From positions 1 to 54,529 of the forward strand of contig CANJCO010000033.1 in assembly GCA_947473045.1 (NCBI GenBank): a stretch of DNA of 54,529 nt, given 5' to 3'. Of this stretch, positions 13,731-54,529 are shown piece after piece. A program made the translations under genes and the position numbers. The number at the start of each line of letters is the position of its first letter. Within the stretch, counting starts at the first letter, position 1. The notes under the pieces were generated by a model. It was not told where the DNA came from. It worked only from the letters and a program-made list of their open reading frames with translations, and did not search any database. This stretch comes from Myxococcales bacterium (GTDB taxonomy: Bacteria; Myxococcota_A; Polyangia; Polyangiales; Polyangiaceae).

Positions 13731-13973
13731 TCAGGCAGCCTTTTCGGCGAGCTTGCCCTTTACGAGATCGTAGCTCTTCGTGAGCGTGGAGATCTCCTGA
13801 AGCTCGGAGTCCTCGATCTTGATTTTGTACTGACGCTCGATGGCGGCGACGATTTCTACGCCCATCATGGAGTCGATGCCGAGGTCCTTGAAGTGGCTGT
13901 CATCGGGCACTTCGGCGATTTCGGCGATTTCAGCGATGAGAGCGCGAAGCTCCTCTTTCAGCTCGTTCGACAT
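13731..13973 (-). CDS. Acyl carrier protein 1 of the lipid locus
   Basis: This 80-residue acyl carrier protein carries the phosphopantetheine attachment motif LGIDSMMGVE. Its helix order and acidity are normal (KIEDSELQEISTLTKSYDL). It is the last gene of the operon FAAL-ACP2-ACP1, 14 bases after ACP2, with a purine-rich site (GGAGAAG) ahead of ATG 13973. The Ser is followed by Met rather than Leu, which is less usual. It probably carries acyl chains loaded by the adjacent FAAL or elongated by the divergent ketosynthases. Confidence 0.92.
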   Translation of the reverse strand: MSNELKEELRALIAEIAEIAEVPDDSHFKDLGIDSMMGVEIVAAIERQYKIKIEDSELQEISTLTKSYDLVKGKLAEKAA

Positions 13974-13987
13974 TTGCTTCTCCGATG

Positions 13988-14239
13988 TCAGCCGAGGGCT
14001 TGGCGCTTCTCGACCAGCTCGAGAAGGTCTTTGACCGTCTGGATCCCGGCGAGCGACTCGTCGGGGATCTGCACCTTGAGTTCGCGCTCCATCGCGCCGA
14101 CGATTTCGAGCATGCCGAGCGAATCGATGCCCAGCTCGCTGATGACCGTCGCCTCCGTGATGGACTTGAACTCTTTCTCGGCGATCTCGGCGGCGGTCTT
14201 GTGAAACATCGATAGAAGCTCTGCGCGACTCAAGGCCAT
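13988..14239 (-). CDS. Acyl carrier protein 2 of the lipid locus
   Basis: The ORF could extend upstream, but the ATG at 14239 has a strong ribosome site (GGAGAAG) and gives an 83-residue carrier protein with the motif LGIDSLGMLEIV. The N-terminus MALSRAELLSMFHKTAAEIA is a good first helix. It differs clearly from ACP1, so two carriers are encoded side by side, perhaps one for starter loading and one for elongation or transfer to the oxoamine synthase. A 154-base gap separates it from the FAAL stop. Confidence 0.92.
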   Translation of the reverse strand: MALSRAELLSMFHKTAAEIAEKEFKSITEATVISELGIDSLGMLEIVGAMERELKVQIPDESLAGIQTVKDLLELVEKRQALG

Positions 14240-14351
14240 GTTCTTCTCCACCGGAGCGTGCGAAGCGCGCAAAAAATGGACACGCGGTCGCCGCCGAAAA
14301 GGTTGCGGTCGTCTACCTGAATCGGACGAAAATTTCAACCACGCAGGACGT

Positions 14352-14364
14352 TCTTTTCAAGAGA
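14352..14364 (+). repeat. 13-bp motif TCTTTTCAAGAGA between FAAL and ACP2
   Basis: This is the only clear non-coding copy of the recurrent 13-mer. The identical word on the other strand is at 2519, inside the kinase gene. Confidence 0.5.
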
Positions 14365-14392
14365 CCCCGCGAGGCGCGAAGTCCGCGGCGAA

Positions 14393-16195
14393 TCAGGTCG
14401 CTTCGGGCTCGCCCGCTGCGGCTGACCTCGGCCGCGGAAGCGTCCCGTCGAGAAACATCTGGCGGGTCTTGCGGCGCTGGGGCTTGCCGCTCGAAGTCCG
14501 CGGCAGCGCGCCCTGCGGGACGATCTCGACCCGGTAGACCGAGAGGCCGATTTGAGCCGCGACCGCCTGCTGAATCTGCTCGGTGATGCCCGCGGCCTCG
14601 CTCTGGAAGGCCTCGGCGCAGACGACGAGCTGCTCTTCGCCGGTTCCGTCTTCAACATGGCGTCCGGCGGCGTCGACCGTGACGCCGAACGCGACCACGT
14701 TGCCGCGGCGCACCCCCGGCAGCTCGCTCACCACCCACTCGATGTCGCTCGGGTAGAAGTTACGACCCCGGATGATGATGATGTCCTTGAGGCGACCGCA
14801 AATGTAAAGTTGTCCCCCCGCGAAGTAACCCAGGTCTCCCGTGAAGAGCCAGGTGCGCCCGTCTTCGCGGCGCCTGAAAGCCGCCTCGGAGAGCTCGGGC
14901 TCGTTGTAGTAGCCCTGACAAATCGAGGGGCCGGTGGTGGTGATTTGACCGACCTGACGCTCGCCGAGGCGGTTGCCCTGCTCATCGACGATGGCCACGT
15001 CGTGGCCCGGAAACCCGGCGCCGCAGCCGACGAGCTCCTGCGCGAGCTCGGAAGAATCGCCCGACGCGTTCTTTTCAAGCGAAGAAGACAGGGCTTCGCC
15101 GCGCGTGAGGCTGCCGGCGTCGACCACGTCCGTGACGAAGCCCGATCCATGCTGCACGAAGGTGGTGGCGAGGGTGGCCTCGGCCATGCCGTACGACGGC
15201 AGAAAGCTCTTCGGGTCGAAGCCCGCGGGCGCGAGCTTGTCCGCGAAATCACGCAGGGTGCGCGCCTGAATGGGCTCGGCGCCGCAGCCCGTGACCCGCA
15301 TGCACGACAGGTCGAGGCCCGAGAGATCTTTGTCCTTCAGGCGCTTGGCGACCAGCGCGTACGCGAAGTTCGGCGCATAGGTGATCGTGCCGCGGTGTTT
15401 GTGGATCGTATCGAGCCAGATGCGCGGGCTGCGCACGAAGCTCGCCGTAGGCAGAAACACAACGGGAATGTCGGTGAACAGGGGACCGATCACGAAGCCG
15501 ATGAGGCCCATGTCGTGAAAGAGCGGCAGCCACGAAACGCCCTTGTCGATGCTCGAATCCTTACCGAGGCCGTGAATCATGAAGGCCTCGCTGTTGTGCG
15601 AGAGGTTGCCGTGCGTGACCACGACCCCCTTGGGGCGCGAGGTCGATCCGCTGGTGAACTGAAGAAAGCACACGTCGTGCTCCGAGACCTCCACGACGGG
15701 CGCCTGCGGGGCCGGCCCGGTGAGCGCATCGATGGTGAGCAAAGCCTCGACGCTCGGCGTGCGGGGCAGCACGGGCTCGACGTACGGGCGCGTCGCCTCG
15801 GTCGTGACGAGCAGCTTGGCCCCCGATGCGCTCGTGATGTGGGCAACGGTGTCGTGATAGGTGTCGACGTTCTTGAACGACAGCTGCGGGTACATCGGAA
15901 CCGGCACGGCTCCTGCGAAGATGGCGCCGAGGAACGTGAGCACGAACTCGTCGGGCTCGGGGATCACCAGCGCGACGCGATCGCCCTTGCTCACGCCGCG
16001 CGCGGACAAGTGCGCAGCGCGCCGCGTGGCCTCCTCGAAAATCGTTTGAAACGAACAAAAGCGCTCGCCTCCGTCCGCGCGAATGAAGGTGAAGCCGCGG
16101 CCCGCGTCGTGCGCGAGCGCGCGCACGGCCTGCACGAGGGTCGGAGCGACGAGGCGGCCAGGCTGACGAACAGGGCTGAGAGCAGGAAGGGCCAT
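14393..16195 (-). CDS. Fatty acyl-AMP ligase (FAAL)
   Basis: This 600-residue ANL-superfamily enzyme has the P-loop-like FTSGSTSRPKGVVVTH, the segment SWLPLFHDMGLIGFV, the motif PSYGMAEATLAT, the TGDLGY core and GRLKDIIIIRGRNFYPSDIE. The phrases SWLPLFHDMGLIG and RNFYPSDIE are typical of FAALs, which activate free fatty acids as acyl-adenylates and pass them to an ACP rather than to CoA. Two ACP genes follow on the same strand. The C-terminal catalytic Lys region (PRTSSGKPQRRKTR) is present. Divergent ketosynthase genes start 142 bases away, so the pair probably shares a control region. Two 13-bp motif copies lie inside (15070, 16042). Confidence 0.93.
   Translation of the reverse strand: MALPALSPVRQPGRLVAPTLVQAVRALAHDAGRGFTFIRADGGERFCSFQTIFEEATRRAAHLSARGVSKGDRVALVIPEPDEFVLTFLGAIFAGAVPVPMYPQLSFKNVDTYHDTVAHITSASGAKLLVTTEATRPYVEPVLPRTPSVEALLTIDALTGPAPQAPVVEVSEHDVCFLQFTSGSTSRPKGVVVTHGNLSHNSEAFMIHGLGKDSSIDKGVSWLPLFHDMGLIGFVIGPLFTDIPVVFLPTASFVRSPRIWLDTIHKHRGTITYAPNFAYALVAKRLKDKDLSGLDLSCMRVTGCGAEPIQARTLRDFADKLAPAGFDPKSFLPSYGMAEATLATTFVQHGSGFVTDVVDAGSLTRGEALSSSLEKNASGDSSELAQELVGCGAGFPGHDVAIVDEQGNRLGERQVGQITTTGPSICQGYYNEPELSEAAFRRREDGRTWLFTGDLGYFAGGQLYICGRLKDIIIIRGRNFYPSDIEWVVSELPGVRRGNVVAFGVTVDAAGRHVEDGTGEEQLVVCAEAFQSEAAGITEQIQQAVAAQIGLSVYRVEIVPQGALPRTSSGKPQRRKTRQMFLDGTLPRPRSAAAGEPEAT
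16042..16054 (+). repeat. 13-bp semi-palindrome TCGTTTGAAACGA
   Basis: This is a perfect copy inside the FAAL gene. On the coding strand it reads TCG TTT CAA ACG, exactly as at 9917 in an unrelated lipoprotein gene. Confidence 0.6.
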
Positions 16196-16336
16196 GGGCG
16201 GCGTTTAGTCCTGCGATCGCCGGCCCGCAAGCGGTCGCGAAGGGCGCGGCGCCGGGCCCGCGCGTAGGCTTTTTCGCAGTAACGCCACGTCGCCGCCGCG
16301 TTGCGCAGCCGCGCGCATGGGCGGTATAAGCGCAAC
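16196..16336. promoter_or_regulatory. Divergent control region between the two lipid operons
   Basis: This 141-base gap separates the FAAL start from the ketosynthase start. TATAAG at 16325-16330 lies 6 bases before GTG 16337 and is the likely -10 box for the rightward operon. No clear operator repeat is visible. Confidence 0.4.
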
Positions 16337-17602
16337 GTGGCCAACAACGAGCGCGTCTTCATTACCGGCGTCGGGGTCGTCAGCTCCGTGGGGATGGGCC
16401 GCGCTGCGTTCTTCGACGCGATCCGCACCGGAAAAAACGGCATTTCGCCAGTAACTTCGTTCGACGCGACGCCGCTGGGACGCTCGTATGCGGGCGAGGT
16501 CAAAGACTTCCGAGCCGCCGATCACCTGACCGCCGCCGAGGCGCGCCGGATGGGGCGATGCTCCGCGATGTCGCTCGCCGCCGCGCGCATGGCCATCGTC
16601 GACTCGGGCATCGATGAAGCGCTGCTGAGAGGGCCCCGCACCGCGGTCGTCATCGGCACCACGATGGGCGAAGCCGACGTCATCGCCGACCTCGATCACG
16701 CCTGGATCGCCGGAGGCGCCGAGGCGGTGAGTCGCACGTTGCTGCCAAAATACGGCTCGACGCTGCTGCCGATTCACATCGCGCGCGCCTACGGGGTTCA
16801 AGGCATGACCATGACCCTGCCGGGCGCCTGCGCGGCGGGAAACTACGCGATCGGCCTCGGAGCCGACATCATCCGCGCCGGACGCGCCGACGTGGTGATC
16901 GCGGGCAGCGTCGAGCTGCTCCAGCAGCTCGAATTCAGCGGCTTCGTGAGGCTCGCCGCGATGGCCGTTTCGCGGTGCCAGCCGTTCGACCTCAACCGTC
17001 AGGGGCTGATCCTGGGCGAAGGCTCGGGCGTCGTGATTCTCGAGAGCGAGGCGCATGCGGTTCGGCGCCACGCCACCGCGCAGGCCGAGGTCGGCGGCTA
17101 CGGGCTCTCGTGCGACGCCTACCACATCACGAGGCCCCATCCGGAGGCGACCGGCAGCATCGCCGCGATGGCGGACGCCATTCGCCGATCAGGCCTCACG
17201 CCCGCCGACGTCGACTTCGTCAACGCGCACGGCACCGGCACCCGCGCCAACGATCAGGCCGAAGCGAAGGTGATGAACGAGATCTTCGGCTCCCGGCGCG
17301 TGCCGATTTCGAGCATGAAGAGCACCCTCGGCCACTGCATGGGAGCCGCCAGCGCAATCGAAGCCATCGGGTGCGTGATGACGATCGAAACCGGCATTTA
17401 TCCGCCCACGATGGGCTACGAGACGCCGGATCCCGAGTGCGATCTCAATGTGGTCGCCAACGCGCCGGCGACCGGTCCGCACGGGGTGTTGCTCAACAAC
17501 TCGCTGGCGTTTGGCGGTTACAACGCGGTGGCGTGCTTCGCCAAGCCCGGCGTGCTTCCGCATCCCCGCGAAGTGGCGGCTTCGCTCGGAGCGCGCTCGT
17601 GA
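16337..17602 (+). CDS. Beta-ketoacyl-ACP synthase (FabF-like), complete active site
   Basis: This 421-residue ketosynthase of the KAS II/FabF type condenses acyl groups with malonyl-ACP. The triad is intact: Cys165 in LPGACAAGNYA, His298 in VNAHGTGTRAND and His333 in KSTLGHCMGAAS (Lys328). GTG 16337 starts the conserved VFITGVGVVSS strand after an eight-residue leader; the longer in-frame start at 16301 would put extra basic residues in front. The stop overlaps the next gene's GTG (GTGA), as in KS/CLF pairs. It belongs to the operon with the CLF-like protein and the oxoamine synthase. Confidence 0.94.
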   Translation: MANNERVFITGVGVVSSVGMGRAAFFDAIRTGKNGISPVTSFDATPLGRSYAGEVKDFRAADHLTAAEARRMGRCSAMSLAAARMAIVDSGIDEALLRGPRTAVVIGTTMGEADVIADLDHAWIAGGAEAVSRTLLPKYGSTLLPIHIARAYGVQGMTMTLPGACAAGNYAIGLGADIIRAGRADVVIAGSVELLQQLEFSGFVRLAAMAVSRCQPFDLNRQGLILGEGSGVVILESEAHAVRRHATAQAEVGGYGLSCDAYHITRPHPEATGSIAAMADAIRRSGLTPADVDFVNAHGTGTRANDQAEAKVMNEIFGSRRVPISSMKSTLGHCMGAASAIEAIGCVMTIETGIYPPTMGYETPDPECDLNVVANAPATGPHGVLLNNSLAFGGYNAVACFAKPGVLPHPREVAASLGARS

Positions 17603-18762
17603 CGCCGCGCTCGATCACGGGCCTCGGCATCTGCTCAACGATCGGCACGGGCCGCGAGGCGTTTTTCCGCGCGCTCGCCGATGCACCTGCGCTCGCGGGC
17701 GCGGAGCTCAAGCCGGTGCTGTCGTTTGACGCCTCGAAATACAGCGAAGCCGCCGTCGCCGAGGTCGCCGATTTCGACCCCGCGCGGTGGCTTGGAGACA
17801 AGGGCCTGCGATCGCTCGATCGCCTCACCAAGCTGCTCGTCGTGGCGGCGCGCCTGTGCGCACACGACGCCGGGCTCAAGCGTGATGGCGCGTTCGTGGT
17901 GGGCTCACCGGAGCAGACCGGCCTCGTGTGCTCGAACGCGTACGGCAGCCTCGAGGCGATCACCGAGCTTGACCGGGTCGCCGTGCTCGAAGACGCGCGG
18001 TACATCAACCCCGCCAAATTTCCCAATACCGTGGCCAACAGCGCCAGCGGCTATGTGAGCATCTGGGAAGACCTTCGCGCGCTGAACGTGGCGATCAGCA
18101 ACGGCAACTGCGGGGCGCTCGACGCAGTCGCGTGCGCCGATATCTACATGGCGAGCCATCGCGCCGAGACCATCCTCGTCGGCGGCGCCGAGGCCCTGTC
18201 CGAAGCGCTTTTTCTGGCGTTTCAGCGCGTAGGGATGCTCGAGTCCGGCGCGCGCGTCGGCGAAGGCGCCGCCATTGTCGCGCTCGAAGACCGCGAGCGG
18301 GCCCGCGCTCGCGGCGCGCGCGTGTGGGCCGAAGTGGTGGGCTGCGGCGCAGCGTTCGATGCGGCCGAAGGCGAAGGCGCGGGCGTTTTTCACGCGTCGA
18401 AAGAAGCCATGGCGCGGGCGATTCACGAAGCGCTGGCCGACGCAGACGTCGCGGCGAGCGAAGTCGACCTCGTGATCAGCGGAGTGGCGGGGCTTCGGGC
18501 GTTCGACGCATTTGAGCTCGCCGGGATCGCCCGGGCGCTCGGCAAAGGCACGCCGGTGTGTGCGCCCAAGCGGCTGCTGGGCGAGACGTTCGGCGCCGGC
18601 GGCGCGATGGGCATGGCCGTCGCTGCAGCGTACCTCGGAGGCCTTCCTCCGCGCGAAATCGTTCAGGGCTTGCCACCGTCGCGCGTGGCCACAGTCGTCG
18701 TCACTGCGATGGGCTACTACGGAAATGCCTCTGCGGTGGTGATGCGCAAGTCTCCAGATTGA
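17599..18762 (+). CDS. CLF-like ketosynthase homologue lacking both active-site His
   Basis: This 387-residue thiolase-fold protein is translationally coupled to the ketosynthase. A Cys is kept (Cys171 in ISNGNCGALDA). The two His positions are lost: the NAHGTGT site reads VISGVAGLRAFD and the LGH site reads LGETFGAGGAMG. Loss of His with retention of the fold is typical of chain-length-factor subunits of type II polyketide and aryl-polyene systems, although those usually also lose the Cys. I infer a heterodimer with the upstream KAS that sets chain length. The start is the GTG overlapping the previous stop. Confidence 0.82.
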   Translation: MTPRSITGLGICSTIGTGREAFFRALADAPALAGAELKPVLSFDASKYSEAAVAEVADFDPARWLGDKGLRSLDRLTKLLVVAARLCAHDAGLKRDGAFVVGSPEQTGLVCSNAYGSLEAITELDRVAVLEDARYINPAKFPNTVANSASGYVSIWEDLRALNVAISNGNCGALDAVACADIYMASHRAETILVGGAEALSEALFLAFQRVGMLESGARVGEGAAIVALEDRERARARGARVWAEVVGCGAAFDAAEGEGAGVFHASKEAMARAIHEALADADVAASEVDLVISGVAGLRAFDAFELAGIARALGKGTPVCAPKRLLGETFGAGGAMGMAVAAAYLGGLPPREIVQGLPPSRVATVVVTAMGYYGNASAVVMRKSPD

Positions 18763-18780
18763 GGTAGACAGCGCCTCGAC

Positions 18781-20013
18781 ATGACGTTCATCGACGAAAA
18801 GGCGCACGCCGAGCTCGCCCGCATCCGTAAGGCCCGCGAAAAGCAGGTTTATCCGTACTTTCGCGAGTTCGAGACCGGCGGACTGCACACGACAATCGCG
18901 GGGCAGCCGATCGTCAATTTCAGCTCGAACGACTACCTCGGGCTCACCAACCACCCGAAGGTGAAAGAGGCCGCACACAAGGCGGTCGACAGCTACGCGT
19001 GCGGTCTGTCGAGCTCGCGCGTGCAGGCCACCACCGTCGACCACGTCGCCCTCGAAAACCGCCTCGCGCGCTGGTACGGCTTCGAAAAGTGCCTGCTGTT
19101 TACGACCGGCTACCAGGCCATGGTCGGTACGATCGCCGCGCTCGCTGACAAAGACACCACCCTGGTGCTCGACAGCTACAGCCACGCCTGCATCCTCGAC
19201 GGCACTTTCATGGCGGCCGGCGTTCCGGGGCGCGCGCCTGAAGTGCGGTTTTTCAATCACAACTCCGTCAAGAGCCTCGAGCGCATTCTCAAGACCCGCG
19301 AGCGCAAAAACGCCATCGTGCTCATCGAAGGCGTCTACTCACTCGACGGCGACAAAGCGCCCATCAAAGAGATGGTCGACATCTGCGCGGCGCACGGCGC
19401 CTACATCGTGCTCGACGACGCGCACGGCACCGGAACGCTCGGCATGAACGGGCGCGGCATTCTCGAAGAGGCCGCTGTCGAAGGGCGCGTGCCGGTCGTC
19501 ATCAGCACGTTCTCGAAGACCTTCGGCGGCATCGGCGGAATCCTCCTCGGTCGCGGAGAAGTTGTAGAATACATTCAACATACGGCCCGTTCGTTCTTGT
19601 TCTCGGCCAGCCTGCCGGTGCCGATCGTGGCGGCCGCGAGCACCATTCTCGACATGCTCGAAGACGAAGGCCCGAAGCTCGTGAGCGAGCTGCACGAAAA
19701 GGCCGAGTGGATGCGCTCGAACCTCAAAAGTGCGGGCTTCGACCTCGGCGCGTCGAACACGCACATCATGCCGGTCTACTGCCGCGATGAGCGCAAGGCG
19801 CTGTTCATGCACGTCGCGCTGCTCGAATCGGGCGTGCTCATGGTGCCCATCACCTACCCCGGCGTGAAGCTGGGCGAAGAGCGGCTGCGCCTCAACGTGA
19901 CCCGCGGTCACACGCAGCAGGACATGGACAAGGCGCTCGACCTGCTCAAGATGTACGGGGAGGCGTTCTTCGTGCTCAGCGGCGAAGATCTCGGCCCCCT
20001 CGAAGACGACTGA
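18781..20013 (+). CDS. Alpha-oxoamine synthase (SPT/BioF/KBL family)
   Basis: This PLP enzyme of 410 residues condenses an acyl thioester with an amino acid and releases CO2. Visible are His135 (SYSHACILDG, stacks on PLP), D212-D213-x-H215 (LDDAHGTG) and the Schiff-base Lys246 (STFSKTFGG). The C-terminal YPGVKLGEERLRLNVTRGHT is like that of serine palmitoyltransferases. The glycine-rich acyl-binding segment is unusual (YACGLSSSRVQATTVDH). Neighbouring FAAL, ACPs and ketosynthases point to an acyl-ACP substrate and a sphingolipid- or sulfonolipid-like 3-keto amino lipid, rather than biotin. Amino acid specificity cannot be read. TAGACA lies 10 bases before the ATG. Confidence 0.85.
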   Translation: MTFIDEKAHAELARIRKAREKQVYPYFREFETGGLHTTIAGQPIVNFSSNDYLGLTNHPKVKEAAHKAVDSYACGLSSSRVQATTVDHVALENRLARWYGFEKCLLFTTGYQAMVGTIAALADKDTTLVLDSYSHACILDGTFMAAGVPGRAPEVRFFNHNSVKSLERILKTRERKNAIVLIEGVYSLDGDKAPIKEMVDICAAHGAYIVLDDAHGTGTLGMNGRGILEEAAVEGRVPVVISTFSKTFGGIGGILLGRGEVVEYIQHTARSFLFSASLPVPIVAAASTILDMLEDEGPKLVSELHEKAEWMRSNLKSAGFDLGASNTHIMPVYCRDERKALFMHVALLESGVLMVPITYPGVKLGEERLRLNVTRGHTQQDMDKALDLLKMYGEAFFVLSGEDLGPLEDD

Positions 20014-20062
20014 GCCGCGCTTGCGGTAGACGCGCGCGCCACGTCGCGATATCTCCTGTGGC

Positions 20063-20341
20063 ATGACTCAGGACCAGCTCGACGCGATCTTCAAGACCTA
20101 CGGCGCCAAGTCCGGAGCAGACGGCTGGTTCGTTTTTCCCGAAGGCTCGGTCGTGTCGATTTACGTGGCGCGCGAGGGCGCGTCGGTCACGTTGGCGCGC
20201 GTCGACGGCGTGAAGTTCGAGGGCGACCTGCTCTTCGGGCGAACGGCAAAAAAAGAGCTGTATGCTGCACGCATTCCCGATGTCCTCGCGCTGTCGTTCG
20301 ACCCGGGTTCGAGCATGCCGTCCAGACGCGCGGGATTCTAA
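20063..20341 (+). CDS. Small protein of unknown function in the lipid locus
   Basis: This is a 92-residue soluble protein with beta-strand-like segments (GWFVFPEGSVVSIYVAREGA, GDLLFGRTAKKELYAARIP). No known domain is recognised and there is no signal peptide. TATCTC ends 7 bases before the ATG. It lies 49 bases after the oxoamine synthase and 3 bases before the acyltransferase gene, so it is probably co-expressed with the latter. The coding call is reasonable; the function is unknown. Confidence 0.6.
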   Translation: MTQDQLDAIFKTYGAKSGADGWFVFPEGSVVSIYVAREGASVTLARVDGVKFEGDLLFGRTAKKELYAARIPDVLALSFDPGSSMPSRRAGF

Positions 20342-20344
20342 GCC

Positions 20345-21232
20345 TTGCGCGTCGCGACGTCGGCCTTGCACTGGGCCGCGCGCGGCGTTGGCGCGCTGAG
20401 GTTCTCTGACCTCGGCGTTTGGGGGCGCGCGCTCGGGTGGGTCGTCGGAAGCGCGCTGGGCGTTCGCCGATCGCACGTCGTAGCGTCGATGCGGGCCGCG
20501 GGCATCCCCGAGCCCGAGGCCGCGGCATCCGCGATGTACGACGCGCTCGGCACCAGCGCGATCGAGCTGCTGTGGCTGGCAGCGCGCGATCGCGATCTGG
20601 CAGCGATCGCGCACATCGACGGGCCATCGACGCGCGCGATCGACGAGGCGAAGCGCGGTGGCCGCGGGCTGGTTTTCGCAGCCTCGCACACAGGCAACTG
20701 GGACCTCGCCGCGTGCGCCATCGCCAGCCATGTGCCGCTCATGGTGATCACCAAGCACCTGTCGATGCGCGGCATCGACGCGTTTTGGCAGGGCACGCGC
20801 GCGCGCTACGGGATCACGCTGGTCGGGGCCGCGGGGGCGCTGGCCAGGGCGCGAGCCCATTTGGCCGCAGGCGGCGCAGTGGCGATGATGATCGATCAGG
20901 TGCCCGATGCCGCGCATCACAGCGTGCGCGCGCCGTTTCTTGGCGGCGAAGCGCACGTCGATCGCGCCCCGTTCGCGCTCGCCGCGGCTTGTCGTGTGCC
21001 GCTGCTCGTTGCCGCGGCCCGACGCACCGAGCACGGTCAGGCCCTGCGCGTACTCACAGCGCTCACGCCACCGGCGGCTGCCGCGACTCGGTGGGCCCAC
21101 GGCGCGGCGCTCGAAGCCACCGCGGCGCTCGATGCGTTCGTGCGCGCGCACCCTAGCGAGTGGCTCTGGATGCACCGTCGCTGGCGCAGGCCTTCGGACT
21201 CACGCGCGGTGCGCAGGCCCGAGCGCCCTTAG
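20345..21232 (+). CDS. LpxL/HtrB-like lysophospholipid or lipid A acyltransferase
   Basis: This ~295-residue protein has the acyltransferase motif H-x4-D in ASHTGNWDLAAC, the later MMIDQVPDAAHHSVRAPFLGG and a C-terminal PSEWLWMHRRWRRP. All are typical of the LpxL/HtrB family that transfers an acyl chain from acyl-ACP to a lipid. The start is uncertain; a TTG at 20345 opens the frame. Placed after FAAL/ACP/KAS/oxoamine synthase, it may acylate the lipid made by the locus, but a housekeeping lipid A role is also possible. Confidence 0.85.
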   Translation: MRVATSALHWAARGVGALRFSDLGVWGRALGWVVGSALGVRRSHVVASMRAAGIPEPEAAASAMYDALGTSAIELLWLAARDRDLAAIAHIDGPSTRAIDEAKRGGRGLVFAASHTGNWDLAACAIASHVPLMVITKHLSMRGIDAFWQGTRARYGITLVGAAGALARARAHLAAGGAVAMMIDQVPDAAHHSVRAPFLGGEAHVDRAPFALAAACRVPLLVAAARRTEHGQALRVLTALTPPAAAATRWAHGAALEATAALDAFVRAHPSEWLWMHRRWRRPSDSRAVRRPERP

Positions 21233-21412
21233 CCGATAGCGCGTGCCGCAACGATCGCAGGCCGGCACCGCGCCCGGCTCGAGTTCGCATACGCACACAG
21301 ACTTGCAGTTTACACATATCCACGCAGCCGCATCTTCGTCGATGAGCGCCGTCGTCGACGGGGGGCACGGCCTTGTCGACGATTGCGCTTCGCGGGTCTC
21401 GCTCGTCATCAT
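21200..21412 (-). CDS. Small zinc-ribbon protein
   Basis: This 70-residue protein has two Cys pairs ([17 protein letters not shown], then [10 protein letters not shown]) of the zinc-ribbon type and an acidic/Thr-rich N-terminus. ATG 21412 is preceded by TACCTT with a 7-base spacer, matching the promoter pattern of the window and supporting a real gene. It overlaps the last 33 bases of the acyltransferase gene tail to tail. The role is unknown. Confidence 0.55.
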
Positions 21413-21419
21413 GGTGTCC

Positions 21420-21425
21420 AAGGTA
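21420..21425 (-). promoter_or_regulatory. Predicted -10 box (TACCTT) of the zinc-ribbon gene
   Basis: TACCTT ends 7 bases before ATG 21412, with no Shine-Dalgarno sequence between. Confidence 0.4.
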
Positions 21426-21550
21426 GCGAGCGCGCGCGTCGATTCGCGCACCGGAGAGCCACGACTTGGAGGCGAATCGATGGCGAGACCCCCGAGCGGG
21501 CGCGCGCCGTGACCGTTGCGGGTAGCGGCACGCGGGGGTATTCCGTCGGC

Positions 21551-22360
21551 ATGCACGATCCCATCGTCATCGCCGGACGCTCCTTCGAAAGCCGCCTCAT
21601 CGTCGGCACGGGCAAATATGCGAGCGTCGAGCAGACGGAGCTCGCGATCGACGCCTGTGAGGCCGAGATCGTCACCGTGGCCCTCAGGCGCGTCGACCTC
21701 AGCGATCGTTCGAGCGGCTCGCTGATGTCGCTGCTGACGCGGCGGGCGAACCTGGGAGACGGCGCGAAGGGCGAGTCGCGGCGCTGGACGATTCTGCCCA
21801 ACACCGCCGGCTGTTTCACGGCCGACGAAGCCGTGCGCACGCTTCGTTTGGCCCGCGAGCTGGGAATCGCAGACATGGTCAAGCTCGAGGTGATCGGCGA
21901 CAAGGACACCCTGTATCCCGACAACGAGCAGACGCTCGAGGCGGCAAAAATCCTCGTGAAGGAGGGCTTTACCGTGCTGCCCTACTGCATCGATGATCCG
22001 ATTGTGTGCCGCAAACTCGAGGACATCGGCTGCGCCGCGGTGATGCCGCTGGCCGCCCCGATCGGCTCCGGGCTGGGCATTCGCAACCCGCACAACCTGA
22101 GCATCATCATTGAACGCGCGAAGGTTCCGGTGATCGTCGACGCCGGCGTGGGCACGGCCAGCGACGCAGCGATCGCGCTGGAGCTCGGGTGCCACGCCGT
22201 GCTGATGAACACGGCGATCGCCCACGCGAGCGATCCGGTGCTGATGGCCCACGCGATGAAGCTCGGCGTTCGCGCAGGAAGAGCCGCGTTTGTCGCGGGG
22301 CGCATGCACAAGAGCCGCTACGCGAACGCGTCGAGCCCGACGAAGGGCCTCATCGAGTGA
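21551..22360 (+). CDS. thiG: Thiazole synthase
   Basis: ThiG makes the thiazole phosphate of thiamine from deoxyxylulose phosphate, ThiS-thiocarboxylate and dehydroglycine. The 269-residue product starts at the conserved [20 protein letters not shown] and keeps [56 protein letters not shown] and [13 protein letters not shown] 21551 is chosen because the family begins here and TATTCC ends 6 bases before it. No thiS or thiO gene and no TPP riboswitch is visible. The stop overlaps the next gene (GTGA). Confidence 0.96.
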
Positions 22361-22611
22361 CGCGCGCAGCTGTGGCGCTCGCGCTGGCGACGCTGACCGG
22401 CGCACCGATGCAGTGCGCGCATCCGCCCGAGGATTCCGTGCGAACCGAAGACAGCGCAGGGGACGCGCTGTGGGCGCTCGCGCAAGATTTTGAAGCGCAC
22501 GGCGAGCACGCAGCCGCTGTGCACACCCTCGATACACTCGCCCGGCGTTACCCCGCCAATCGCCACGCGCAGGCTGCGCGACTCGCGGCCGCGAGCGACG
22601 CCGGCCCGTGA
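22357..22611 (+). CDS. Small exported or helical protein between thiG and thiE
   Basis: This 84-residue protein starts at a GTG overlapping the thiG stop. It has a hydrophobic N-terminus ([14 protein letters not shown]) with a Cys soon after that could be a weak lipobox, then a TPR-like helix pair ([38 protein letters not shown]). It is not ThiS: it lacks the terminal Gly-Gly and the ubiquitin-like pattern. Function is unknown. Confidence 0.5.
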
Positions 22612-22627
22612 TGCGGCGCGGGGCCGC

Positions 22628-23257
22628 GTGACGCCGAGGCTGGTGCTGATCACCGACGCTGCGTTTGGCGACGACCTGCTCGCGCGCGTCGCTCGCGCGG
22701 TTTGTGGGGCAGTTCCCGGGGCGTGCGTGCAATTGCGCGATCGCGTTCGCAGTGACGACGCGCTGCTGCCGCTCGCGATGCGCTTGCGCGAGATCACGCG
22801 CGCCCACCGCGCGATGCTGATCGTCAATCGACGCCCCGCGCTGGCCGGAGCGTGCGGAGCCGATGGCGTTCACGTGAGCGCCGCGGACGTCGAAGAGACG
22901 CGCGCCGCGCTCGGGCCTCACGCGTACATCAGCGCGCCTGCGCACGACGCGGGCGAGCTCGAACGCGCGCGCCGAGGCGGCGCCGATTTCGCGCTGGTGA
23001 GCCCGATTTTCGCCTCACCCGGCAAAGGCCCGGGTCGCGGCACCGTCGCGCTACGACAAGCCCGAATGCTGTCGGGGTCGCACATGGGGATCGTGGCGCT
23101 CGGAGGGATCGACGCGTCGAATGCGGCGGAGTGCTTCGAAGCCGGCGCGCTCGGCGTCGCGGCGGTTCGAGCGCTGCTCTGCGCGGGCGACGCGGGCGAA
23201 ACTGCGGCGCGAATGGTCAGCGCATGCGGCGTTTGCTATGAGCCAGCTTCCCGATGA
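22628..23257 (+). CDS. thiE: Thiamine-phosphate synthase family protein
   Basis: ThiE joins the thiazole and pyrimidine halves of thiamine. The 209-residue product from GTG 22628 shows LVLITDAAF, CVQLRDRVRSDDALL, MLIVNRRPALAGACGADGVH, the phosphate-binding ALVSPIFASPGKGPGRG and GIVALGGIDASNAAE. The catalytic-loop spacing resembles ThiE, but short members of the TenI branch look similar and cannot be excluded. Its stop overlaps the ATG of an ACP gene (ATGA), an unusual coupling. Confidence 0.85.
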   Translation: MTPRLVLITDAAFGDDLLARVARAVCGAVPGACVQLRDRVRSDDALLPLAMRLREITRAHRAMLIVNRRPALAGACGADGVHVSAADVEETRAALGPHAYISAPAHDAGELERARRGGADFALVSPIFASPGKGPGRGTVALRQARMLSGSHMGIVALGGIDASNAAECFEAGALGVAAVRALLCAGDAGETAARMVSACGVCYEPASR

Positions 23258-23550
23258 CGCATGAAGAGTCTCTGAAGGTGACACTCGAGGTGCTCGCGCG
23301 GCACTTCGACCCGCCGCGCGAAATCGCTGCGACGCACGAGATTCAGGCCGATTTGGGCCTCGACAGCCTCGCGGTCATGGAGATCATCGCCGACATCGAA
23401 GACGCCGCCGGCGTGCATGTGCCGATGGAAGCGCTCGAAAGCATTGTGACCGTTGGCGACGTCGCGGCGGCGTTGGTACGATTGACGGAGGGCGCCCCAC
23501 CGAAGTATGCCGGAGGCCTGCGAGCCGCCAATCATGGTAAACTTGTCTGA
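23254..23550 (+). CDS. Acyl carrier protein 3
   Basis: This 98-residue carrier has the site LGLDSLAVMEIIADIED and a C-terminal extension (PPKYAGGLRAANHGKLV) beyond the usual ACP end. It is translationally coupled to thiE (ATGA overlap). It lies 2-10 kb from the two ACPs of the FAAL operon and may serve the same lipid pathway or an unrelated one. There is no phosphopantetheinyl transferase in the window. Confidence 0.9.
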   Translation: MTHEESLKVTLEVLARHFDPPREIAATHEIQADLGLDSLAVMEIIADIEDAAGVHVPMEALESIVTVGDVAAALVRLTEGAPPKYAGGLRAANHGKLV

Positions 23551-32754: not shown

Positions 32755-34377
32755 ATGCTCACCCGCACGCTGGCGCTCGCGTCCACGCTCGTAGTCGTTT
32801 CGGCTTGTTCGGCAGGCGACCAGACGCCCGAAACAACCGGATCGACCGCCGACGCGATGAAGGTCGTTTGCGGCGCCAGCGCGGGCGGCCCCGTACAGGG
32901 GCGCGACGTATCGGTCTATCAGGGCAACTTCGACTGGAACGCGCAGAAGGCGCAGGGCGTGGTCTTCGGCTACGCCCGCATCAGCGATGGGACCACCCAC
33001 TACGACTCGCAGTTTTCGAACAACTGGAACAAGATGAAGGCCGCCGGCATCCTTCGCGGAGCCTATCAGTTCTTCGAACCGGCGCAGGATCCCGTCGCGC
33101 AGGCGAACATGGTGGTCGCGGCGATCGGAAAGCTGGGCGTCGGCGACCTTCCGGCGATGATCGACGTCGAGGCCACGGGCGGACAGTCGGGCGCCACGAT
33201 CGCGGCGCGCATTCAGATCTGGATGGACGTGGTCGAGAAGGGAACAGGGCGACATCCGCTCATCTATTCGGGCTCGTATTTCTGGGAGGACAACGTCGGC
33301 TCGACCGCCTTCGGCGCGACCCCGTTCTGGATTGCGGCTTACGGCCCGGCCTGCCCGTCGGTGCCGAACGGCTGGTCAAACTGGAAATTCTGGCAGTACT
33401 CCAACGGCAACGGCTCCCTTGATCACGACGTCTTCAACGGCACGCTTGCCGAGCTTCAGGCCATGGCGCGGCCCGCCGATCAGGCGCCCCGCGGATACCT
33501 CGACGTCGCCGACTGCGCGTCGATCGGCGGATGGGCGCAAGACCAGGACACGCCGACGAAGGCGGTGAATGTCGACTTGTATTTCGACGGCCCTGCGGGC
33601 TCGTCCGCACCCGGCGTGAGGACGCTCGCGAACCAGTCGCGCGCCGATCTCTGCACGCCGCTGGGCTCGTGCGAGCACGGCTTTGCGCTGAAGACTCCGG
33701 CGAGCCTGTTCGATGGTAAGCCGCACACTGTTCACGCCTACGGCATCGACTCGAATCCGATCGGCGACAACCCGCTCCTCGCCGACGCTCCGAAGTCGTT
33801 CAACTGCGCGCTTCCGGCGCTACCGAAGAACGTCCTCCGCCGCCACGTCACCGATCAGGCCTCATTTTCGGCCTGGAAGTTCAACATGTTCGAGGGCGTG
33901 TTTCACTATCCGCAAGCTCAGGTGAACACCCTGCCGATCGGCCGCGCGCTGACCGCGGCCCCGACGCTTGTCGTCGCCGACGGTGATCCCGGCATTTACG
34001 TGAGGGACGGCAAGCTCAAGCGTCACGTCATCAATCCCGCGTCGATGACGGCCTGGTCGTTCGACGGACTCGCGCTCAAGAAGCTCACCCTCGCCCAGCT
34101 CCAGGCCATGCCGAACGGCGCCGAGTGGCCGGCCGCTCCGACGCTGATTCAGGGGAGCGGCGGGCCGGAGGTCGACGTGCTCGACGTGGCCGACGGTGCC
34201 GCCGAGGACGCGCCGACGTCGCCCGCGCTGCCCGCCGCCCCAGCGGTTCAAGCCGACGCGAGCGGAGCGTCTGGAGATTCGGGCGGCTGCTCGGCTGCCG
34301 GAACGAGCAACTCCGGCGCGGCGAGCTGGCTCCTGAGCCTCGCCGTGGTCGCCATGCTGCGGAGGCGCAAGGCCTGA
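32755..34377 (+). CDS. GH25 lysozyme-like lipoprotein with MYXO-CTERM-like tail
   Basis: This 540-residue protein has a lipobox (VVVSACSAG, Cys18), then a GH25 muramidase domain (GRDVSVYQGNFDW with Asp51, PAMIDVEATGG, FWIAAYGPACPS, WKFWQYSNG). A middle beta domain recurs in myxobacterial hydrolases (GYLDVADCASIGGWAQD), and two short repeat domains follow (LRRHVTD, LKRHVIN). The C-terminus GGCSAAGTSN, a hydrophobic stretch and RRRKA resembles the MYXO-CTERM surface-sorting signal. GH25 enzymes cut the glycan of peptidoglycan. An N-terminal lipobox plus a C-terminal sorting signal on one protein is odd. TACGCG lies 6 bases before the ATG. Confidence 0.92.
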   Translation: MLTRTLALASTLVVVSACSAGDQTPETTGSTADAMKVVCGASAGGPVQGRDVSVYQGNFDWNAQKAQGVVFGYARISDGTTHYDSQFSNNWNKMKAAGILRGAYQFFEPAQDPVAQANMVVAAIGKLGVGDLPAMIDVEATGGQSGATIAARIQIWMDVVEKGTGRHPLIYSGSYFWEDNVGSTAFGATPFWIAAYGPACPSVPNGWSNWKFWQYSNGNGSLDHDVFNGTLAELQAMARPADQAPRGYLDVADCASIGGWAQDQDTPTKAVNVDLYFDGPAGSSAPGVRTLANQSRADLCTPLGSCEHGFALKTPASLFDGKPHTVHAYGIDSNPIGDNPLLADAPKSFNCALPALPKNVLRRHVTDQASFSAWKFNMFEGVFHYPQAQVNTLPIGRALTAAPTLVVADGDPGIYVRDGKLKRHVINPASMTAWSFDGLALKKLTLAQLQAMPNGAEWPAAPTLIQGSGGPEVDVLDVADGAAEDAPTSPALPAAPAVQADASGASGDSGGCSAAGTSNSGAASWLLSLAVVAMLRRRKA

Positions 34378-34423: not shown

Positions 34424-34574
34424 CCAGCGGGGCGCTCGAAGAACGCCCTGCCAGGACTTGGCGAAGCCAATTGCGTGGGGTCGGGACCGACGAAAAACCG
34501 CGTTTTTCGGGCCGGGGAGGTGCATACCTCCCCGAGATGAAAGGCTAGCAGGCCGCTGCTTCAACGGCCTGCCA
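34424..34574 (-). repeat. Hairpin repeat element, copy A (diverged, inverted)
   Basis: This is a diverged copy of the element at 42341 in the opposite orientation. The core with GGGGAGGTGCATACCTCCCC and the TTGGCGAAGCCAA hairpin is well kept; the outer hairpins have several changes. It lies 47 bases after the GH25 stop. The 432-base gap 34378-34809 otherwise shows no gene; peptides such as GRCIPPRDER read through it are artefacts of the repeat. Confidence 0.85.
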
Positions 34575-34809
34575 GGGTTCAGCGTGACTTTGTTGTCAGC
34601 TCCCTTGAATAAGCGAGCAGGTCGCACCGTCGAACGGTGACATTCTCGCGGTCGCTACCTGCGCTCTCCCGCGCCGCGGCGATCTCGCGTATGTTGCCCC
34701 CCAATGTCGAATGAGCGCGGCGAGTAAAAACGCCTTCGCTGACCTCGATCCACCACTTTTGCACGTTGTTCACCGGCGCACGATGTCGCCACCCGAGAAA
34801 GGCCCTCCC

Positions 34810-42336: not shown

Positions 42337-42342
42337 ATATTA
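42337..42342 (-). promoter_or_regulatory. Predicted -10 box (TAATAT) straddling the repeat edge
   Basis: TAATAT ends 7 bases before ATG 42329. Its first two bases are the terminal TA of repeat copy B, so everything upstream of the -10 is repeat DNA. Confidence 0.4.
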
Positions 42343-42487
42343 GCAGGCCGTTGAAGAACGGCCTGCTATCCTTTCATCTCGGGGAGGTATGCACCTCCCC
42401 GCCCCGAAAAACGCGGTTTTTCGGGGTCCCCACCCCACGCAATTGACTTCGCCAATTCCTAGCAGGGTGTTTTTCAACACCCTGCTA
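42341..42487 (+). repeat. Hairpin repeat element, copy B
   Basis: This 147-bp element has four stem-loops: TAGCAGGCCGTT/AACGGCCTGCTA around GAAG (42341-42368), CGGGGAGGT/ACCTCCCCG (42380-42401), CCCCGAAAAA/TTTTTCGGGG (42402-42426) and TAGCAGGGTGTT/AACACCCTGCTA around TTTC (42460-42487). Both outer stems begin TAGCAGG and end CCTGCTA, giving inverted termini. It is identical to copy C over the 145 bp visible there. No transposase is adjacent. Confidence 0.92.
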
Positions 42488-42568
42488 ACAAACGTTGCGC
42501 CACGGCTACCCAGAATGCGTCGCCCTACGTTGTCAAGAAAACGGATTCTCAACGCCCGGCGATGCGCC

Positions 42569-54050: not shown

Positions 54051-54384
54051 CTACTTCTCTTCCTACTCGAATCCTCGAAAAAGCCGGGGATATGCGAAGG
54101 TGCCGCGCGGCTGCGCCAGCGGGCCTCCAGCATCGGCGGGTCTGCCTCCGGGCGGGCGAACAGGTCGCGTCGTCCCTCATGGCTGCGCGCGCGACGGCGC
54201 GCGACCGAAGCGTCGACGCCGCGTGATCGCGATGCCCAACGTCCTGCTGGGCGTGCACGTCGAGCGCCTGACCGACGCCGGTGCAGCGAAATTCGCTCGG
54301 CGCAGCGAAGAGCTCGCATGGCAGGTCGCTTCTAAACTGCCCGCCCGCCACGCCAACGGGCGACCGCTCGGCACCGACGACTGC
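54051..54384. other. Region between tRNA-Pro and repeat copy C
   Basis: No confident gene is present. An open frame from ATG 54232 encodes 51 residues (MPNVLLGVHVERLTDAGAAK and onward) and stops at the TAG that opens repeat copy C, so it may be a gene remnant cut by the element. No integrase, direct repeat of the tRNA 3' end or promoter is evident. Confidence 0.4.
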
Positions 54385-54529
54385 TAGCAGGCCGTTGAAG
54401 AACGGCCTGCTATCCTTTCATCTCGGGGAGGTATGCACCTCCCCGCCCCGAAAAACGCGGTTTTTCGGGGTCCCCACCCCACGCAATTGACTTCGCCAAT
54501 TCCTAGCAGGGTGTTTTTCAACACCCTGC
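54385..54529 (+). repeat. Hairpin repeat element, copy C (runs off the window)
   Basis: The first 145 bases of the element are identical to copy B, 12 kb away; the last two bases fall outside the window. The perfect identity suggests recent movement or gene conversion. The opening TAG closes a short upstream frame. Confidence 0.92.

Follow-up and report, generated by a model that had tools for sequence, protein, structure and literature searches.

A probable IS5-mobilised MITE with a conserved three-hairpin core, often placed on stop codons in a Polyangiaceae genome

The hairpin-rich repeat described here was found in a 54,529-nt stretch of DNA (the window) from a Polyangiaceae genome. Judging from sequence comparison, it is very probably a 141-bp MITE moved in trans by a DDE transposase of the IS5 family, with insertion at CTAR sites and duplication of 4 bp. 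MITEs derived from IS elements are already known. A previous sequence-only reading of this DNA had proposed a MITE or a REP/BIME-type element moved in trans. The former is favored by the terminal repeats, the 4-bp duplication, the dispersed copies and an IS5 partner, while the latter lacks a Y1/RAYT gene. The element is short and carries no transposase gene. Since 141 bp leave room for at most 47 codons, the earlier statement that it has no coding capacity is reasonable, short of proof.

Three copies are present in the window, as originally noticed. Copies B (42341-42487) and C (54385-54529), both on the plus strand, are alike over 145 bp without a mismatch. Copy A is indeed inverted and diverged, 91% identical to copy B over 135 bp, and is older. 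Based on the flanking tetramers, the mobile unit of copy B, CAGG...CCTG, spans positions 42344-42484; the corresponding units are 34428-34571 on the minus strand for copy A and 54388-54529 for copy C (BLAST and flank comparison). The window is the whole of contig C33, and copy C is cut off where this contig ends. The genome-wide total is far higher than three. In this 5.15-Mb assembly (138 contigs, 99.98% complete), 42 copies were matched by BLAST and at least 150, all with E below 1e-12, by R1, a covariance model built from 16 sequences of the core. Copy B has a 100% identical match on contig C19, and dozens of further copies show 97% identity to it or more. About 82 of the 150 matches scored tie at a near-top score and the remainder form a diverged tail. 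This distribution points to a family that is old but has recently undergone a burst, to which the copies with equal scores would belong. The copies are dispersed and have unrelated flanks, as expected for a MITE, and many contigs of the assembly terminate inside a copy. In an assembly from another genus (G006, loci L031/L205), a copy 97% identical was found at the end of a short contig; it represents either a recent transfer or a misbinned contig.

Besides the two inner stems and the two outer ones (12 bp, 4-base loops) recognized before, the predicted fold of copy B contains a third, weaker inner stem. Its minimum free energy is -76.1 kcal/mol on the plus strand, compared to -41.6 for shuffled sequence (z -9.8); the opposite strand also folds better than shuffled sequence (z -8.4). 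The left end hairpin (42341-42368, plus strand) has a GAAG loop in its 12-bp stem and includes the IS5-type left terminal repeat CAGGCCGTTGAAGAAC. The right end hairpin (42460-42487, plus strand; 12-bp stem, TTTC loop) gives the IS5-type right terminal repeat CAGGGTGTTGAAAAAC when read as the reverse complement. The inverted TAGCAGG/CCTGCTA ends reported earlier do contain terminal repeats, except that the outer TAG and CTA are parts of the flanking CTAR/YTAG tetramers. Between the end hairpins lies a structured core (42372-42457, plus strand) of three plus-strand hairpins, with compensatory pairs among relatives: hairpin 1, GGGGAGGT-ATGC-ACCTCCCC, at 42381-42400; hairpin 2, CCCCGAAAAA...TTTTTCGGGG, at 42401-42427; and hairpin 3, AATTGACTTCGCCAATT, at 42441-42457, which is weak in copy B. 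Loop-loop pairing within the core was considered and dropped for weak support.

Some neighbors of these copies were noted in passing. A minus-strand frame (42338 to about 41094) has its ATG a few bp downstream of copy B; its product starts with the signal-peptide-like MRRMRLLSLSLLGVLVSGPAFAQA, and copy B may provide the 5′ leader of this gene. Just before copy A, the protein encoded at 32755-34377 has a hydrophobic segment and then RRRKA at its C-terminal end, similar to a MYXO-CTERM sorting signal. Further away, the region 13731-23550 contains two or three acyl-carrier-protein-like genes, a ligase-like, two ketosynthase-like and an aminotransferase-like gene, as judged by eye from the translations, and is possibly a lipid or polyketide locus.

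The boundaries of the element were defined by an alignment of 92 copies from the same genome, in which the CAGG...CCTG ends are constant and the sequence outside is variable. The left-edge tetramers in 56 copies include CTAG (21), CTAA (11), CTGG (9) and CCAG (6), and these four also account for most tetramers when both sides are taken together. In 64 copies, the fourth flanking base (A or G) agrees between the left and right sides much more often than expected for independent flanks (table [[13,1],[6,43]], Fisher p=3e-8), and no likeness of the two flanks was seen beyond 4 bp in this comparison. One nested copy provides an empty site. At locus L008, the left hairpin of an older copy is interrupted by a second one, and removal of the insert and one CCAG restores the older copy, which then matches a paralogue elsewhere. 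The target-site duplication that had been proposed as a check is therefore seen both in the co-varying flanks and in this clean empty site, which are, as read from the sequences, marks of a DDE transposase. In E. coli, IS5 duplicates a 4-bp target with the consensus C-A/T-A-G/A (PMC11677980). The right flank is frequently ATAG where the left is CTAG, and an alternative description would be a 3-bp duplication (TAR), with the variable base before the right TAR assigned to the element. In the window, copy A is bounded by CTGG on the minus strand at both 34424-34427 and 34572-34575. Copy B is not a clean example of duplication, its left (TTAG, 42340-42343, plus strand) and right (CTAA, 42485-42488, plus strand) tetramers being different. 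The left tetramer of copy C is CTAG (54384-54387, plus strand), and a small ORF at 54223-54387 is predicted to stop at its TAG.

Two genes in the window's genome show profile matches to DDE_Tnp_1. One belongs to a resident IS on contig C83 (L219; 1339 bp, CTAA-CAGGACGTTGAG...TTTCAACACCCTG-CTAA), and here the search for an IS sharing the ends of the repeat, suggested by the earlier reading, was successful. Its 356-aa transposase scores 273.5 bits with the NCBIfam IS5 model NF033581, against a cut-off of 140. The ends of this IS read CTAA-CAGGACGTTGAGAAAC on the left and, as the reverse complement of the right end, TTAG-CAGGGTGTTGAAATTC; its right end is identical to that of the MITE in the 12 terminal bases (CAGGGTGTTGAA). 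Its left end lacks the perfect hairpin of the MITE and the IS is single-copy, so that a sibling since lost may have been the actual mobiliser. We infer that the moving is done by the C83 transposase or by such a sibling with hairpin ends. A related genome (G011) carries a 520-bp deleted IS5, CTAG-CAGGGTGTTGCAGAACACCCTG ... CAGGCCGTTCTGCAACGGCCTG-CTAG, the transposase fragment of which is 71% identical to the C83 transposase. Its two ends carry the two MITE-like hairpins, CAGGGTGTTGCAGAACACCCTG and CAGGCCGTTGCAGAACGGCCTG respectively, and one of these ends matches the left terminal repeat of the MITE at 21/22 positions. Because both end types are present in this element, the difference between the left and right ends of the MITE is an IS5 trait. 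The second DDE IS in the window's genome, on contig C54 (L220, about 144-1537; 414-aa open frame), was rejected as a partner since its terminal repeat differs (CACTACTTTGACA); it has CTAG on both sides and is inserted within the CTAG that borders a MITE copy.

The core is more widespread than any one set of ends. It was found in 28 of 108 Polyangiaceae genomes, representing 16 of 48 genera, and in a sample of the phylum it was present in 12 of 377 genomes, all but two in Polyangiaceae. A scan of named genomes gave core matches in Labilithrix, Minicystis rosea (a single copy) and several MAGs, and the family was placed as Polyangiaceae. The core is about 85 nt long and follows the pattern TCATC-nCGGGG...CCCCG-CCCC...GGGG-TCCCCACCCCACGCG-hairpin 3. 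Among 35 cores, compensatory changes occur at 12 of 24 pairs (73 cells versus 27.1 +/- 3.9 in shuffles, an excess that kinship can inflate), and hairpin 2, re-read in its own register, shows them at six or seven of ten pairs; hairpin 3 is less regular than the others. The core is probably kept through selection on its folded form, either RNA or cruciform DNA.

The end hairpins around this core vary between lineages: CAGGCTGCTGAA in G005; CTAA-CAGGCCGATGAA in G001; CTC[AG]AGAGCTGTCGA, with CTTCAG at the right, in G022 and G068; CTAR-ATGACCGAGC in G085 and G090; and CTAG-AACGCCGATC in G023 and G103. Some cores in G005 and G086 lack end hairpins altogether and begin immediately after a TAR stop codon. 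Conversely, three loci in G007 (L035, L043 and L047) carry solo end-type hairpins, AGCAGGGTGTTTTTCAACACCCTGCT and TAGCAGGCCGTTGAAAAACGGCCTGCTA, without a core, and the core model finds nothing in that genome. At one junction shared by G085 and G090 (L145, L148; flanks about 80% identical), the elements lie within about 25 bp of each other in opposite orientation, which looks like two separate insertions into one gene junction. In the other lineages, 12 genomes gave 39 DDE_Tnp_1 matches, and a scan of 30 of these loci for terminal repeats with flanking duplications found no IS convincingly matching the local ends, most of its hits being due to chance; an end-pattern search in G022 revealed no autonomous copy. 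One IS end in G011 (L294, AACACCGATCAC) loosely resembles the left end in G023 and G103, which is only a lead. It is conceivable, though we hold it only tentatively, that the hairpin core is a selected module carried by different ends, perhaps by different mobiliser classes (IS5-type at TAR; oriented and without duplication at TGA), and brought repeatedly onto stop codons.

In the window's genome, an edge of the element coincides exactly with the stop codon of a neighboring gene in 28 of 53 copies, compared to 19 of 149 random CTAR sites (p=2e-8), and 19 of 53 copies versus 15 of 149 random sites lie between convergent genes. For these counts, the coding frames closest to each copy on either side were assigned with a home-made codon score, based on codon usage in the window, and not with a standard gene finder. 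One strand of CTAR contains TAA or TAG and the opposite strand TAG, so that both stops are kept after the 4-bp duplication. Selection alone is enough to produce this pattern, and the enrichment may reflect selection rather than targeting. The tight spacing around the copies is not special, because gene ends are tightly packed anyway: convergent genes without an element are separated by medians of 24 and 13.5 bp. In G022 (ACE_MYX3), the right edge falls exactly on a TGA stop in 28 of 31 copies, compared to 1 of 61 control CTTCA sites (p=4e-19). It is always the right edge, and the TGA belongs to the gene running into the element, so the orientation is fixed. No duplicated tetramer is visible in the G022 copies, and symmetric IS5-type insertion does not explain their fixed orientation.

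Two other kinds of origin have to be considered for the copies themselves. A segmental-duplication remnant or an assembly artefact could be suspected from the many copies at contig ends; such ends are, however, what a short-read assembly would be expected to produce at a 147-bp identical repeat, and diverged copies are assembled inside contigs. With at least 150 copies, the interior ones having exact edges and unrelated flanks, the flank comparison rules out segmental duplication, and with it the earlier proviso that only three copies might exist within a duplicated segment; this explanation is almost certainly wrong. Slightly more credit, yet still very little, can be given to a REP/BIME-type repeat whose hairpins are recognized by a RAYT (Y1 tyrosine transposase). 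The short hairpins, the tetranucleotide at the edge, the mosaic tandem copies with a common hairpin and the mostly intergenic positions all fit it, as does the G022 element, which follows CTGA without duplication in a genome that has one RAYT-like gene. However, the search for a REP-associated tyrosine transposase gave no Y1_Tnp (PF01797) match in the 99.98%-complete genome of the window, whereas five control genomes score, and across 108 genomes the presence of RAYT does not track that of the element. The RAYT-like gene of G022 has no element ends on its flanks, and none was detected in G068, which shares the ends of G022. The 4-bp duplication in the window's genome suits a DDE and not a Y1 transposase. 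A REP/RAYT origin is thus ruled out for this genome, barring a highly diverged Y1 protein.

The remaining explanation, improbable but the least so of the three, is that the core is a structured RNA or 3′-UTR element serving the host, such as a bidirectional terminator or a protector of mRNA 3′ ends, and that its spread at gene ends reflects this function. It would account for the compensatory changes across genera, for the exact stop-codon positions and for the G005 and G086 cores that directly follow TAR stop codons. Against it, copies in the window's genome show no clear orientation preference relative to genes, the hairpins are not followed by the U-run of intrinsic terminators, and a search of Rfam 15 with six loci returned no family at its gathering score. 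The patchy presence in the family's genomes, the target duplications and the recent burst of identical copies also count against it.

The preferred reading, a MITE moved by an IS5-type enzyme, leads to the following scenario. An IS5-family DDE transposase would move the hairpin-ended element (CAGGCCGTTGAAGAAC..., CAGGGTGTTGAAAAAC...) into CTAR and duplicate 4 bp. Since CTAR contains a stop codon, such insertions would spare the stops of the flanking genes. In a GC-rich, tightly packed genome, gene ends would be the tolerated sites, and copies would build up exactly on stop codons, frequently between convergent genes. The three-hairpin core would be inherited across Polyangiaceae, while the end hairpins would diverge or be swapped with the transposase in use. 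If terminal repeats were the constrained part, one would expect the ends to be kept and the middle to change, the opposite of what is seen here. The coincidence with stop codons, TAA/TAG in one lineage and TGA in another, makes a testable case of a selfish element settling without breaking genes, and the family offers a test of targeting versus selection as the cause of this placement.

Our literature search turned up no publication describing such repeats, either in Polyangiaceae or in other myxobacteria. Compared to the IS5 family (E. coli IS5; NF033581), the element shares the 4-bp CTAR duplication and its terminal repeats match those of an IS with a DDE transposase in the same genome, but it is non-autonomous, only 141 bp long and has full-hairpin ends, with no internal likeness to the IS noticed. 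REP/BIME elements with RAYT are similar in their hairpins, hairpin-sharing mosaics and gene-end positions; the Polyangiaceae MITE differs from them by its 4-bp target duplication and by the lack of a detected RAYT in the window's genome. The CIR (CerM-associated intergenic repeats) of Caulobacter and relatives are about 110 bp long, conserved across related species, and form stem-loops in their 5′ and 3′ parts (PMC2229807). They are likewise intergenic repeats with independent stem-loops common to related species, but they carry a GANTC motif, whereas the Polyangiaceae MITE shows target duplications and an IS5 partner. RUP of pneumococcus, a non-coding element of about 107 bp with more than 100 intergenic copies, has ends matching a resident IS and a target duplication (PMC2229807). 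In its short non-coding sequence, many copies, resident-IS ends and target duplication it is like the Polyangiaceae MITE, although its mobiliser is IS630-Spn1 and its target TA, as opposed to IS5-type ends and CTAR. For RUP, no signature of structure or function is reported beyond the terminal repeats, whereas the Polyangiaceae MITE has a three-hairpin core with compensatory changes across genera. What is unusual about this family is that a structured core is shared while its ends change, and that copies in more than one lineage are placed exactly on stop codons.
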